From Holophagaceae bacterium (GTDB taxonomy: Bacteria; Acidobacteriota; Holophagae; Holophagales; Holophagaceae), in the NCBI GenBank assembly GCA_025357545.1, contig JANXPB010000175.1, forward strand, positions 1 through 40,729: DNA of 40,729 nucleotides, read 5' to 3'. The position numbers and the translations under genes were made by a program. This document shows, piece by piece, positions 4,728 to 27,501 of the stretch (its first letter is position 1; each line of letters begins with the position of its first letter). Below the pieces are notes generated by a model, which was not told the DNA's origin, searched no databases, and saw nothing but the letters and a program-made list of their open reading frames with translations.

Positions 4728-5636
4728 TCACAGCCCCCAACAGGCGAGGTGGCTGTCCGCCCACCGCTTCCACCCGCCGGGCACCTTGCCCCCCGCCTCG
4801 CAGTGCCCAGCGCCCGCCACCACGGTGAGATCCGGGTGCGCCCTCGCGATTTCCTGAACGCCCACCAAGGGCGTGATGGTGTCCGCAGCTCCCGCCAGGA
4901 AAGCCAGGGGAGTCCGGAGGCGCATGCTGGCCTTCAACGGCGACACCGCGTCCGGGTCAAAGTGGGCCATGCGCGCGGCGCGGTGGAGCGCCACAAATTC
5001 CGCAGGCCGCGCGAGGACCTCCACCCAGCCGAGGGTCCCCTTCAGGTGGTTGCGCGCCGCATCCCGAAGATCCACATAGGGCGATTCCAGCAGGGCGCCC
5101 GCCAGGGGCACTCCATTGCGTTCAAGGTCCGCCAAGGCCAGCAGGGCCACACCGGCCCCCTGACTGGTTCCCACGATCAACATCCGCTGCCGGGGGATCC
5201 CCTGCCCTTCCAGGAATCGCTCCACACACACCACATCCTGCCCTTCCCAGGCACCCAGGGTGGAGGGAACCTCCGGGTGGCGGTCCCGACCACGGAAAGT
5301 GAAGACCACGGCATCCCACTCCAGAAGATCCCGGGAGCGCGGAGCGGTGCCCCAGGCATCGTCGCCAAAGCCGTGAAGGAAGATCACGACGCCCTTGGGT
5401 TGGGCGCGGTGCAGCCACCAGACTTCCAGCGCACACCCCTCCCCGCCCCGCACCGCGTGCTGGGTCCAATGGCTTCCAGCCACCGCGAGGGTGCCGCGGA
5501 TTTGCTCCCGCTGGAGCTCCGTGCGGGTGGGCTGGGGACACCGGAGCAACTGCTCCGGCAGCAGGAAGCCCGCCACCGCCGTGAGTCCGGTCCACAGCAG
5601 CAACAGCGAAAGGAACAGCCGAGCAAGGAGGCGCAT
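4728..5636 (-). CDS. Membrane-anchored or exported alpha/beta hydrolase
   Basis: 302 aa. An N-terminal hydrophobic segment (about residues 4-25) would act as signal peptide or anchor. The alpha/beta-hydrolase core follows: oxyanion-hole motif FLHGFGDD near residue 87, nucleophile elbow GTSQGAG with Ser158, acid AGAADTITP with Asp252, and base AGAGHCEA with His278. All three catalytic residues are therefore present in correct order. Best matches in style are the serine aminopeptidase/lysophospholipase-like exported hydrolases. Substrate is not predictable. It is followed on the same strand by the unrelated secreted protein at 4118, about 100 bases away. Confidence 0.85.
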   Translation of the reverse strand: MRLLARLFLSLLLLWTGLTAVAGFLLPEQLLRCPQPTRTELQREQIRGTLAVAGSHWTQHAVRGGEGCALEVWWLHRAQPKGVVIFLHGFGDDAWGTAPRSRDLLEWDAVVFTFRGRDRHPEVPSTLGAWEGQDVVCVERFLEGQGIPRQRMLIVGTSQGAGVALLALADLERNGVPLAGALLESPYVDLRDAARNHLKGTLGWVEVLARPAEFVALHRAARMAHFDPDAVSPLKASMRLRTPLAFLAGAADTITPLVGVQEIARAHPDLTVVAGAGHCEAGGKVPGGWKRWADSHLACWGL

Positions 5637-23757: not shown

Positions 23758-23832
23758 TGGTTGGCGCGGGCGGTCTCGAACCGCCGACCCCCACCGTGTC
23801 AAGGTGGTGCTCTACCGCTGAGCTACGCGCCA
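23758..23832 (-). tRNA. tRNA-Val(GAC)
   Basis: 75 nt with encoded CCA. The acceptor stem is TGGCGCG/CGCGCCA, the D arm GCTC-AGCGGTA-GAGC, the anticodon arm CCACC-TTGACAC-GGTGG (anticodon GAC), the variable loop GGGTC, and the T arm GGCGG-TTCGAGA-CCGCC, with discriminator A. All stems pair perfectly. It decodes GUC and GUU valine codons. It stands alone, followed at once by a terminator. Confidence 0.97.
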
Positions 23833-24016
23833 TTACGAAACCGTTATTGTAGCTGGCTCTGGGTTTTTGTCGAGGGAAGGCCTTGCGGAGGTGGGCCGCT
23901 GCTGGTTCCGTGATGGCTGCGTGATGGCCGTGCCCAATGCATGGCCCGATCGGTTGCGGTCGGCCCCGCCGCGCGGAGGAGATTGGAAAGCGGGCTCGCC
24001 TAGCCGACAGAAAATC
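23833..24016. other. Spacer upstream of tRNA-Val
   Basis: Roughly 180 bases with no supported gene. It should hold the tRNA promoter on the minus strand, but I see no strong -35/-10 pair. It leads into the repeat and hairpin array that runs to 24295. Confidence 0.4.
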
Positions 24017-24040
24017 CATCGCGCCGGCCTGCGGCCGGCA
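24017..24040. repeat. GC palindrome repeat, copy 1
   Basis: Contains GCCGGCCTGCGGCCGGC, a 7-bp perfect palindrome around TGC, preceded by CATCGC. Identical 24-bp copies occur at 24154-24177 and 24219-24242. This resembles a REP-type element. Confidence 0.8.
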
Positions 24041-24044
24041 ATAT

Positions 24045-24093
24045 GGGCCCTTAGCGGACCGACAGCGCCTTTCTGTCGGTTCGGATAGGGCCC
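24045..24093. repeat. Nested inverted repeat
   Basis: Outer arms GGGCCCT (24045-24051) and AGGGCCC (24087-24093); inner arms CCGACAG (24059-24065) and CTGTCGG (24073-24079) around CGCCTTT. It could form a two-stage hairpin. No T run follows on either strand. Confidence 0.7.
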
Positions 24094-24120
24094 GTTATAC
24101 CCGTTAAGGGTGAGAGGAGC

Positions 24121-24250
24121 CCTAACGCCTTCGATTTGCTTTGGAGAACCACCCATCGCGCCGGCCTGCGGCCGGCATAAGAAGCCCTAACGCCTTCGAT
24201 TTGCTTTGGAAAACCACCCATCGCGCCGGCCTGCGGCCGGCATAAGGAGC
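24121..24250. repeat. Two tandem 65-bp repeats, each carrying the GC palindrome
   Basis: Units 24121-24185 and 24186-24250 differ at only two positions. Each reads CCTAACGCCTTCGATTTGC, then ACCACCCATCGC and GCCGGCCTGCGGCCGGC, ending CATAAG(A/G)AGC. A third unit starts at 24251 (CCTAACG) but breaks into another hairpin. The first palindrome copy (24017) lies outside the tandem, so the palindrome moves or is copied separately from the 65-bp unit. Not CRISPR: no spacers. Confidence 0.88.
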
Positions 24251-24295
24251 CCTAACGAAATCACCCACTCGCGTGGGTGATTTCGCAAGGGCTCC
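24247..24295. terminator. Very long two-stage hairpin reaching the Omp85 stop codon
   Basis: Outer arms GGAGCCCT (24247-24254) and AGGGCTCC (24288-24295); inner arms CGAAATCACCCAC (24256-24268) and GTGGGTGATTTCG (24273-24285), with loop TCGC. That is 21 perfect pairs with one small internal loop. The last base overlaps the stop codon of the minus-strand Omp85 gene. There is no T run, so it is an atypical terminator or mRNA 3'-end stabiliser. Confidence 0.6.
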
Positions 24296-27200
24296 TAAAA
24301 TTGGAAACCGGCGGAGATCAGGAGGGTATGAAGTTGAGTGTTCCTTTCTTCTCGGGTGCGGGTCCGGCCCAGGATGCGTTTGACGTCCGCGCCGTATTCG
24401 ATCTTGATGGGCAGGCCCAGCTTGAAAATGAGGCCCACGCCGGCCGCCACGCGCAACGGCGGATATTGGGACTGGTAAGGCGTTCCGCCGGGACTCAAGG
24501 CAGCCCCCCGCAGGATGCTTGGATAAACCTGGCCCGCGTCCATGAAAACCTCCCCCCAGATCGTCGTCCCGATGAGCGGGAACCGGTAATCCAGATTGAT
24601 CAGGGCCAAGCCCTGCCCGCCAATGGGAATGAGCTGGTAGACGATGCTCGTCCCATCGGGCGAGAGCAGGGGAACATACTTTCCGCCCGAGGTCTGGCGG
24701 AGGAAAGGGATGCTGGTCTCGGGGCCCAGGAAGTCGGGTTCAACCCCCCGGAAGGTGCCTGAGCCGCCGGCGAAGAAGCGCTCCGCCAAGGGCAGTTGCT
24801 GGCTGCTGCTGGAGGTGGGGCGCGCCGCGCCGATGCGCAGGCCCAGGCTCACGACGCCTGCGCTGGCCCGGTAGCCCACGGGCCAGGTCCATTGTTGGCG
24901 GGCATCCAGCTTCACGAAACTGGAGTTCCGGCTGGTGCCGAACAACTGGTTCGCAAATTCCAGACGCACTGAGGTGAGCGCGCCGTTCGTAGGATCGTAG
25001 GGGCTGTCGCGGGTGTCGCTGATCCACTGGATGTAGGGCGCGGAGATGGTGGAGCGGGAGGGGCTCCGCGTGGCATTGTTCAGCAGGTCAGGGTCCTCGA
25101 GGATGCTCTTGAACCGATCATAGGGAGGCGAGTTCAGGTCGACGAGGTCCACCAGCCGCACGTCGGAACGTTCGAAGCGGTGGCCGATGCGCAGCACCCG
25201 CGTGGCATCGAGACGCCACTCCAGGCTGTTCAGCACACGCCGCCGCCGAATGAGATAGGCGGTCTGCTGTTCCTGGATATAGGCTGCCTCGGCCCTGTAC
25301 TGGGCGCGCTCCGGCAAGAAATTGGTAAGGATGCCCGGCGAGAACCAGGGATCGGTGTAGCCCAGGGTGTAGCTATCCACCGAACGCGAGAAATCACCTG
25401 TGGGAAACCACCTCCGCAAGGTGGGGTTCTTGATGGTGCCGTCGCCGGCTCGCAGGCCGAAATCCAGGGTGCGGCCCATGCCTTGGACATTCAGGCGTTG
25501 CACCCCGTAACCGAAGTTGTAGCCCGTGCTCTTGTCGTAGCCGAAGGACTCGCTGAAAACCCAGTGGGAGCGCTCTTCCAGGCGCAGTGCCAAGTCGCTA
25601 TCGGTCCAGGGACCGGTCTTGTCCCGCCCCTCCGACTCGGCGGCCACATCCTTCATGCTCACTATGTCCACGCGCTTGAAGGCCCCCAGGTTGCCCAGGT
25701 TGGCCTGGGCCTGGCCCACGTTTTCAAGGTTGAGGGGCTTGCCCGGTTCCAAGTCCTTGGTCTCCCGGGCTACCGCCCGGGCGCGGGTTTCGTCGCTGCC
25801 CTGCACCACCAGCCGCCGCACCTGGGGCAGGTCCTGTTTCGGAATGTCGATGCGGATGGTGGCACCGGCGTCATCCTCGTCGAAGCGCATGTGGATGCTG
25901 GGCCGGATGGAGCCCAGGGAGGCTACATGCTGGTTGATGCCCGTGAGCACCGCGCCCATGTCCGCCCGCAGATAGGGGACCGGCTGCTCGGTCAGGAGGC
26001 GCACCCTGGTTTTAGGTTTGCCGATCTCGCTGGGGAGGAGTTCCAGCACCGCCACGAGCCCCTTCAGTTCCCGGCGGTCGGACTGGTAGCGCCGCCGCTG
26101 GATGAAGACAGGTTGCAGAAGGATGGGCTTGTCGGAAAAGGCGCGGAGCAAATGCTCGCCGAATTTCCACGGATCCCACACATCACCTTCGGGCAATTCC
26201 AGGATGATGGCCCGCAGCGTGCGGCGAGACCCTTCGCGAATGGAAAAGACCAGCACCTGTTCGCCATTGCGGACATCGACGCGGCGCCGCAGCCGCACTT
26301 CCGAAAAGCCGGCCGCAAGATAGCGGTTCTTGATGCGGGTCTCCACTTCGCCCAGCAGGTCTGGCGTGGCCTTGGGCGCATTGAAGAAGAGCGAACCCCG
26401 TGGAAGGCTGGCAGCCTTGCGCAGCTCTTGGTCCGTCAATTCCTGATTGCCTTCAAAGAGGATGCGGTTCGCGTAATGCCGCTGGCCTAGCCGGATTTGG
26501 TAGGTGATGAGCACTTCCTGCGGTTGCGCGGCATCCCCGGCCACCCCTTCGCGAACATGGGTGGATCTCACATCCAGGTAGCCCTTGTCACGGAAGTGGC
26601 GGGTGATGTTGCGGTCGCCTTCGTCCAGCAGCTCTGGTCCGTAGCGGTCCGCCCGGACCAATGGCACCAGTTCCTTCAAGGTGCGTTGGCTGAGGCGTTC
26701 ACCTTGGGATCGGAGGCGCACGATCGGCCCGGGATGCACGGTGAGCGTTATGGTGCCATCGCTCGCGTAGGAGAATTCGCCCTTCCCCTCTAACCGCCGG
26801 TCCTTCACGAAACGGCGGCGCAGGTCCCGGGCCGCCTGGCGGCGGAGGGTCTGGGTCCAGAGCGTGCGGCCCAGCTCGATGCCTGCGGTCTTGAGCAGGT
26901 TCGTCTGGCTGTAGGGCCCTAGATCACCCACCACCTCGACCGTCCGGATCAGGCTTGGGGGCCCCAGCGCGAGATGCAGCGTCAACGCCGCACCGGTGGC
27001 ATCCCGCTCCAGCTGGAGCGAGGCCTGGGGATGGCCCTCGTCTCTTAACCAAGCCTCGGCGCGCTTCCGCCAATCCTCCAGCCGGATCGGGCCCAGACGC
27101 CGCCCTTTCCGCAGATCGGGAAAGAGGCTCTGCCAAGCCTTGGCCGGCAGCGCATCGCCCTGCCAGGCCCAGGTGCTGAGTGGCGCCCAGGGGTCCAGAC

Positions 27201-27501
27201 GGATGCGCGCCACCACGCCACCCGGGCCGGGTTCCAGACTGCCCTCCACCGTCCGGAAGCGGTCCGTGGCCCGGATGGCCTCGAGCACCTTCGCCAGGGG
27301 CGCGGTGATGGGCTTGCCCGGGACTAGCCCGGAGGCCATCGCCGCAAAGGTCTGATCGTCGACGTCCCCACCGCTCCAGGCAAACCCTTGAAACGAATCC
27401 TGCCCCGCCGGCGGCGCGGGCTGGGCCGCGGCGCCAACGGGGCAGAGAAGTCCAATCAGCGCCGATGCGCGGGCCGCACGCACCGGGCGCATGGGTGGCA
27501 T
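24295..27501 (-). CDS. Omp85/BamA-like outer-membrane assembly protein
   Basis: 1068 aa, longer than typical BamA (about 800). An N-terminal signal (ASALIGLLCPVGAAA, cleavage before QP) precedes about 600 residues of POTRA-like modules, visible as repeats such as IRTVEVVGDLGPYSQTNLLKTAGIELG, YANRILFEGNQELTDQELRKAASLPRG and VRRLVVQGSDETRARAVARETKD. The C-terminal third is a beta barrel (SRSTISAPYIQWISDTRDSP, RFFAGGSGTFRGVEPDFLGP, then LINLDYRFPL), with the FRG motif of Omp85 lid loops, ending in an aromatic QF. It inserts or secretes outer-membrane proteins. It lies 4 bases after a STAS gene; chaperone Skp or BamD genes are absent, so an alternative Omp85 rather than the main BamA is possible. 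Confidence 0.9.
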   Translation of the reverse strand: MPPMRPVRAARASALIGLLCPVGAAAQPAPPAGQDSFQGFAWSGGDVDDQTFAAMASGLVPGKPITAPLAKVLEAIRATDRFRTVEGSLEPGPGGVVARIRLDPWAPLSTWAWQGDALPAKAWQSLFPDLRKGRRLGPIRLEDWRKRAEAWLRDEGHPQASLQLERDATGAALTLHLALGPPSLIRTVEVVGDLGPYSQTNLLKTAGIELGRTLWTQTLRRQAARDLRRRFVKDRRLEGKGEFSYASDGTITLTVHPGPIVRLRSQGERLSQRTLKELVPLVRADRYGPELLDEGDRNITRHFRDKGYLDVRSTHVREGVAGDAAQPQEVLITYQIRLGQRHYANRILFEGNQELTDQELRKAASLPRGSLFFNAPKATPDLLGEVETRIKNRYLAAGFSEVRLRRRVDVRNGEQVLVFSIREGSRRTLRAIILELPEGDVWDPWKFGEHLLRAFSDKPILLQPVFIQRRRYQSDRRELKGLVAVLELLPSEIGKPKTRVRLLTEQPVPYLRADMGAVLTGINQHVASLGSIRPSIHMRFDEDDAGATIRIDIPKQDLPQVRRLVVQGSDETRARAVARETKDLEPGKPLNLENVGQAQANLGNLGAFKRVDIVSMKDVAAESEGRDKTGPWTDSDLALRLEERSHWVFSESFGYDKSTGYNFGYGVQRLNVQGMGRTLDFGLRAGDGTIKNPTLRRWFPTGDFSRSVDSYTLGYTDPWFSPGILTNFLPERAQYRAEAAYIQEQQTAYLIRRRRVLNSLEWRLDATRVLRIGHRFERSDVRLVDLVDLNSPPYDRFKSILEDPDLLNNATRSPSRSTISAPYIQWISDTRDSPYDPTNGALTSVRLEFANQLFGTSRNSSFVKLDARQQWTWPVGYRASAGVVSLGLRIGAARPTSSSSQQLPLAERFFAGGSGTFRGVEPDFLGPETSIPFLRQTSGGKYVPLLSPDGTSIVYQLIPIGGQGLALINLDYRFPLIGTTIWGEVFMDAGQVYPSILRGAALSPGGTPYQSQYPPLRVAAGVGLIFKLGLPIKIEYGADVKRILGRTRTREERNTQLHTLLISAGFQF

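Follow-up and report, generated by a model that had tools for sequence, protein, structure and literature searches.

Background

The BOX element of Streptococcus pneumoniae (boxA - boxB n - boxC) has end modules enclosing tandem inner modules, whose number varies, lies between genes and folds into hairpins, all of which it shares with the Holophagaceae element described here. BOX encodes a gene's stop codon in 36 cases without clear truncation (PMC3049150), and the ends of both elements can fall on the stop codons of genes. The Holophagaceae element, which comes from a different phylum, differs from BOX in the conserved A-A mismatch and loop of its right-hand (R) hairpin, in an inner unit of 65 bp and in its TAAG/TAA ends. 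The likeness claimed is one of architecture alone, and no sequence relation to boxA, boxB or boxC is expected.

REPs and BIMEs are dispersed extragenic palindromes that occur in mosaic arrays and in both orientations, with compensatory changes in their stems, and in these respects they also resemble the Holophagaceae element. The hallmark of the REP/RAYT system is a GTAG (or GTGG) head at the foot of a 20-40 bp palindrome, together with a RAYT gene that is flanked by the repeat. The Holophagaceae hairpin, in contrast, is longer (53 nt core), has no GTAG/CGTC head and no associated RAYT. REP-like palindromes tagged with CGTC have been reported without a dedicated transposase (PMC3733652), although the element described here lacks the CGTC tag and is a larger composite of two hairpins. 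Finally, MITE-like repeats such as ERIC/RU-1, RUP and Correia/NEMIS, which are intergenic foldback sequences of ~100-150 bp (PMC2229807), share with the Holophagaceae element a small size, a non-autonomous nature and inverted ends; here, however, the triplets at the two ends often do not match as a target duplication would, and no parent insertion sequence was found in the three genomes searched. No description of a Holophagaceae or Geothrix repeat family was found in the open-access literature searched. Composite interspersed palindromic repeats are a well-known kind, and this particular family would appear to be undescribed.

Layout of the repeat block

The window, i.e., the whole stretch of DNA analyzed (40,729 nucleotides), is an entire contig (C175) of a 3.27 Mb assembly in 239 contigs (genome G000). 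It carries a composite repeat block in which, in plus orientation, B palindrome 1 is followed by hairpin C, a small hairpin D, two 65-bp units with a B palindrome each, and hairpin R. The features are as follows:

23758-23832, minus strand: tRNA-Val(GAC), a neighbor outside the element
24016-24298: composite block, between tRNA-Val and the Omp85/POTRA gene
24016-24039, plus strand: B unit copy 1, 7+3+7 palindrome with a conserved CCATCGCG lead
24043-24095, minus strand: hairpin C, a member of the R hairpin family in inverted orientation, based on covariance model R1 matches and loop orientation
24099-24111, no strand assigned: small hairpin D, ACCCGTTAAGGGT (ACCC/GGGT)
24115-24179, plus strand: 65-bp tandem unit 1, with an arm copy AGGAGCCCTAACG, a linker and B palindrome copy 2
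24180-24244, plus strand: 65-bp tandem unit 2, carrying B palindrome copy 3
24245-24296, plus strand: R hairpin (right-end module), ~21 paired positions, A-A mismatch, ends in CCTAA
24297-24298, plus strand: AA completing the conserved right-end TAA
24295-24297, minus strand: Omp85 stop codon TAG, common to the right end of the element
24295-27501, minus strand: Omp85/POTRA outer-membrane protein gene (Pfam PF01103, 3e-27; PF07244, 6e-18), the host gene adjoining the element

The palindrome GCCGGCCTGCGGCCGGC (17 nt, 7+3+7) is present in three copies without mismatches, at 24023, 24160 and 24225, while shuffled sequences averaged 0.2 matches when up to two mismatches were allowed. An initial annotation, made from the sequence alone, had described three identical copies of a 24-bp palindrome. 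The 24-nt context is identical in all three (starting at 24016, 24153 and 24218), but the full 24 nt is a repeat, and only the 7+3+7 nt within it form the palindrome proper. The two tandem 65-bp units differ at two positions (97% identity), as originally described, and the second is indeed a recent local duplication. Also borne out was a hairpin of about 21 pairs reaching the Omp85 stop codon: the arms of R (24245-24268 and 24273-24296) are 92% complementary, and its last two bases (24295-24296) fall within that codon, so that the hairpin supplies the TAG. A covariance model match extends over R from 24214 to 24299 (94 bits).

Hairpins C and D are additional to the structures in the initial annotation. 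Over hairpin C, matches to R1 were obtained on both strands (24012-24098, plus; 24040-24113, minus), and hairpin D follows hairpin C in other copies too. The order B-C-D-A(R) is repeated at four other loci (L005, L045, L050 and L058) and is reversed at a fifth (L061). As single-stranded DNA, the block folds far better than shuffled sequences (z = -7.9).

Dispersal in the genome and across the Holophagaceae

A search of the whole genome recovered the exact 19-nt palindrome string only in these three copies, but BLAST of the block found diverged relatives elsewhere in the same genome. The covariance model R1 (B plus R, built from six copies) gave at least 90 matches at E<=1 with both strands counted, corresponding to at least 46 distinct hairpins of adequate length; both figures are lower bounds from scoring the best 150 of 813 first-look candidates. 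In a survey of 100 genomes, R1 matched 32 of 61 Holophagaceae (own genome included) and none of the 39 genomes outside the family. All five species (genomes) of the genus carry the element, with at least about 40 matches each among the best 44 candidates scored per genome. Several sister genera had no R1 matches, and G035, from a mostly empty genus, had at least 43. Most of the Holophagaceae genomes used are fragmented assemblies. Nothing similar to the element was found in plasmid and phage collections, and a search of Rfam with the block gave no match at the curated score, the tRNA alone reaching the cut-off. The block thus belongs to a repeat family that is dispersed, lineage-bound and structured, has been amplified recently and forms composite arrays, and it is probably one copy of a new composite, non-autonomous family of dispersed palindromic repeats that is confined, as sampled, to the Holophagaceae (Acidobacteriota).

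Two further observations were made in these genomes. An element in G055 (L079, genus g4) and one in G004 (L126, genus g1) are 98-99% identical together with both flanks, for which bin contamination and recent transfer are alternative explanations. A second short dispersed repeat, ATGAGCCATGAGCC...GTGCGCCTTCGGC, is also present in the genus (L270:4301-4340 and 5069-5108; flanks of L176).

Recent movement and modular composition

A 105-bp version of the element is present in the sister species G004 in 12 copies at ~90% identity or more, two of them at 100%, and the flanks of these copies are unrelated to each other. Such near-identical copies in unrelated flanks indicate that the element moves or has recently moved. 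Genes between neighboring copies in G004 (C33 and C171) appear to be ordinary chromosomal genes. An independent young subfamily was found in G035, which belongs to another genus, including a 140-bp form (L288, L289, L290, L292 and L293) with a third hairpin, TAGATCCAGGTCAACGCCTGCGTTGACCTGG, inside the left arm of R. The proposal that the palindrome multiplies by itself, as REP elements do, therefore holds as far as a dispersed family with near-identical copies in a sister species is concerned, but not as strict REP membership, given the lack of a GTAG/CGTC head and of any link to a RAYT.

The element is modular. Solo L halves were found, and R halves are also joined to unlike left halves. In 39 loci, B palindromes precede the R hairpin, generally by 26 nt, and their stems covary (e.g., GTCGGCC/GGCCGAC and GCCGGAC/GTCCGGC). 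Upstream of R, the B unit is present one to four times, often at a spacing of 65-68 nt (several loci, sister genomes). Because tandems of 65-68 nt recur in sister species, the 65-bp tandem of the window represents one case of a general habit.

Hairpin structure and level of folding

Among 28 ungapped hairpins from the genome, both partners had changed in 16 of 21 pairs. No shuffle out of 500 reached any of five pairing measures, and, although relatedness can inflate counts of compensatory changes, slid versions of the alignment, which retain that relatedness, also fell far below. Pair 10/44 is a conserved mismatch (A-A in 91 of 141 distinct hairpins), and the loop is conserved as well. Stem mismatches in the 141 hairpins comprised 119 A-C and 75 G-T. 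Were folding at the RNA level, G-U should outnumber A-C, and the observed ratio of 75 to 119 instead favors folding at the DNA level or template switching. Template switching inside a quasi-palindrome can likewise produce covariation and needs no selection to do so. Hence, the data favor either DNA-level folding or replication template switching that restores pairs without selection.

The Omp85 locus

The Omp85 gene is not truncated, as its last residues (..SAGFQF or close) are alike with and without the element. Orthologous hairpins at the Omp85 end are present in three species (G000, G003 and G004). These differ at pairs 4, 5, 7, 8, 14-16, 18, 19, 22 and 23, with nearly all differences compensatory and the A-A mismatch kept in all three. 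The element may have been retained at the shared position since long ago, or it may have inserted repeatedly at a site it prefers. In the corresponding gap of G002 (L101, after the Omp85 stop), we observed a decayed R hairpin and a different long repeat, GGGGGGACGTAGTGAGCGAAGCGAGCAGGCGGTCCCCCC.

Position beside a tRNA gene had also been taken to fit an insertion hotspot. This was not supported, since none of the 41 other element loci in the genome has a tRNA within the ~1.5 kb of flank fetched. One sister species (G001), though, has an apparently empty Omp85-tRNA gap, in which the Omp85 TAG is followed ~50 bp on by tRNA-Val without an element.

Insertion sites and element ends

According to gene calls from a simple home-made codon-usage caller, of 151 hairpins only 2 extend more than 25 nt into a called gene. 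Gene starts and gene ends flank the hairpins about equally frequently on either side, and both orientations are used about equally. For 30 of 70 convergent genes, the gene ends exactly where the right end of the element supplies TAG, and five more end 17 nt further in. At the left border, several upstream genes stop exactly there, with TAA, TAG or TGA.

The ends of the element read TAAG and CCTAA, its core hairpin measures 53 nt, and terminal inverted repeats are present (a GCCGTTG-like left end and GGGGCCGTTGC, reverse, at the right end). At the right end, 71 of 74 copies carry TAA. The left triplet is more varied (TAA in 37/74, TGA in 6/74 and TAG in 4/74), and TAA is found at both ends in 36/74. 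This pattern suggests that the left triplet is the target and the right TAA a part of the element. Judging from the end sequences, insertion would likewise seem to proceed without target duplication.

Search for a mobilizer

No mobilizing enzyme or autonomous copy was found in searches for Y1 and Y2 transposases, integron integrases and terminal repeats. Searches with the terminal repeat in G000, G004 and G035 recovered, on inspection, only the arms of the element; two repeats spaced as in an insertion sequence were not seen. Since metagenome bins and assemblies frequently lack multi-copy elements, the absence of a mobilizer is weak evidence.

A RAYT or other Y1 transposase was rejected as the mobilizer, as the distribution of the genes does not match that of the element. 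Six element-rich genomes have no Y1 gene (G001, G002, G014, G016, G042 and G057), while five genomes with Y1 genes have few or no elements (G010, G025, G034, G045 and G053). The initial annotation had recommended looking for a REP-associated tyrosine transposase; Y1 genes, as these counts illustrate, do not track the element. The single Y1 gene of the genome (L033:301-732, on G000:C5) is of the IS200 type, encodes 143 aa and has hairpin-like flanks of its own that are unrelated to the element. No element copy was present in the 1.4 kb read around it. An IS91-type Y2 transposase was likewise rejected, being absent in G001-G004 and G014, as was an integron integrase acting on attC sites, for which both distribution and sequence mismatch. 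Integron integrases scored above the curated cut-off in 24 of the 60 genomes searched. Beside the integrase of G007 (L268, G007:C1:576000-588000) are two attC-like 124-nt repeats that are 82% identical and have GGTTAGGC ends.

Alternative explanations

The initial annotation had considered a simple local duplication sufficient if the repeat occurred nowhere else and was absent in sister genomes. That is true only of the exact 19-nt string and false for the family. While this string and the 97% identity of the 65-bp units are consistent with a purely local event unrelated to other places, such an origin is extremely improbable given that the genome holds other, diverged relatives of the whole composite and that sister genomes have them too. 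If the hairpins were retained for their action in transcripts, as a conserved RNA element or a structure at the mRNA 3' end, this would account for their abutting stop codons and for pairing kept at the orthologous Omp85 end in three species. Nonetheless, G-U pairs do not outnumber A-C mismatches in the stems, the element shows little preference for one orientation or one gene end, copies that are nearly identical lie in unrelated places, and the block has no Rfam match. An intrinsic terminator, one sense in which a role at the mRNA end had been suggested, is contradicted by the lack of a T-tract and by a terminator scan that returned no sites (shuffles, mean 1.1). Overall, retention for a function in RNA is improbable.

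Movement by known classes of enzyme must also be weighed. In its short palindromes between genes, its composite arrays and its compensatory stem changes, the element resembles REPs and BIMEs (PMC2817692), and the genome does have a Y1 transposase gene. The ends, however, are TAAG/TAA rather than a GTAG or CGTC head, and that sole gene is IS200-like, with no element in the 1.4 kb read around it. Given also the mismatched distribution of Y1 genes, a strict-sense REP/BIME mobilized by a RAYT is quite improbable. Integron attC-like sites moved by an integrase would look alike in that a folded strand with conserved unpaired bases is recognized, and integrases are common among relatives. Yet the element-rich G000 and G004 have no integrase over the cut-off, whereas G007, G017 and G024 have one but only 0-3 elements. 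Near the integrase loci fetched, R1 gave nothing but one match 1.4 kb away, in G035. The repeats at the integrase of G007 are different, and the ends of the element differ from GTTRRRY/RYYYAAC, so that there is very little chance of an attC identity. A MITE of a DDE insertion sequence (e.g., IS5- or IS630-type), with short terminal inverted repeats and a TA/TAA target duplication, is more plausible, though still unlikely. As terminal inverted repeats would, the two ends share the reading G..CCGTTGC..AAAATAA, bounded on the outside by TAA, and the foldback structure, the size of ~105 bp and the recent bursts agree with it. Against this, a left triplet that varies beside a nearly constant right TAA is unlike a duplicated target, and no terminal-repeat pair at insertion-sequence distance was found in the three genomes searched.

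Proposed mechanism

In the family proposed here, the basic element would consist of a left half (an L or B unit, ~47-65 bp) and a right hairpin half (R, ~57 bp). A triplet resembling a stop codon (TAA, more rarely TAG or TGA) would precede it, and a TAA of its own would form the other end. An enzyme supplied in trans may recognize the folded R hairpin as DNA via the conserved loop and A-A mismatch, leaving the stem free to covary. This enzyme would place the element between genes, often exactly at stop codons, such that no reading frame is harmed. Mobility in trans and DNA-level recognition of the hairpin are what we infer from these patterns. The fuller scheme, comprising precise insertion beside TAA, TAG or TGA without target duplication, an own TAA at the other end, and movement in trans by a hairpin-recognizing DNA enzyme outside the Y1 (IS200/RAYT), Y2 (IS91) and integron classes, is put forward tentatively and is on balance doubtful.

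At the Omp85 locus, an ancestor of the three sampled sister species may have gained the element at the stop codon, or there may have been more than one separate entry. Thereafter, the 65-bp B unit would have been duplicated in tandem on the spot and a second hairpin module added in inverted orientation, giving the present array. Any effect on the ends of Omp85 mRNA would be secondary.

Implications

Composite repeats of the BOX/BIME type are thus present at high copy number in a poorly studied family of Acidobacteriota, with ends that coincide with stop codons. Several copies of the element sit at contig ends, and such repeats may therefore help explain contig breaks in metagenome assemblies of Holophagaceae. 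Since two genomes from different genera both carry young copies that are nearly identical, the mobilizing enzyme and the insertion rule become testable.
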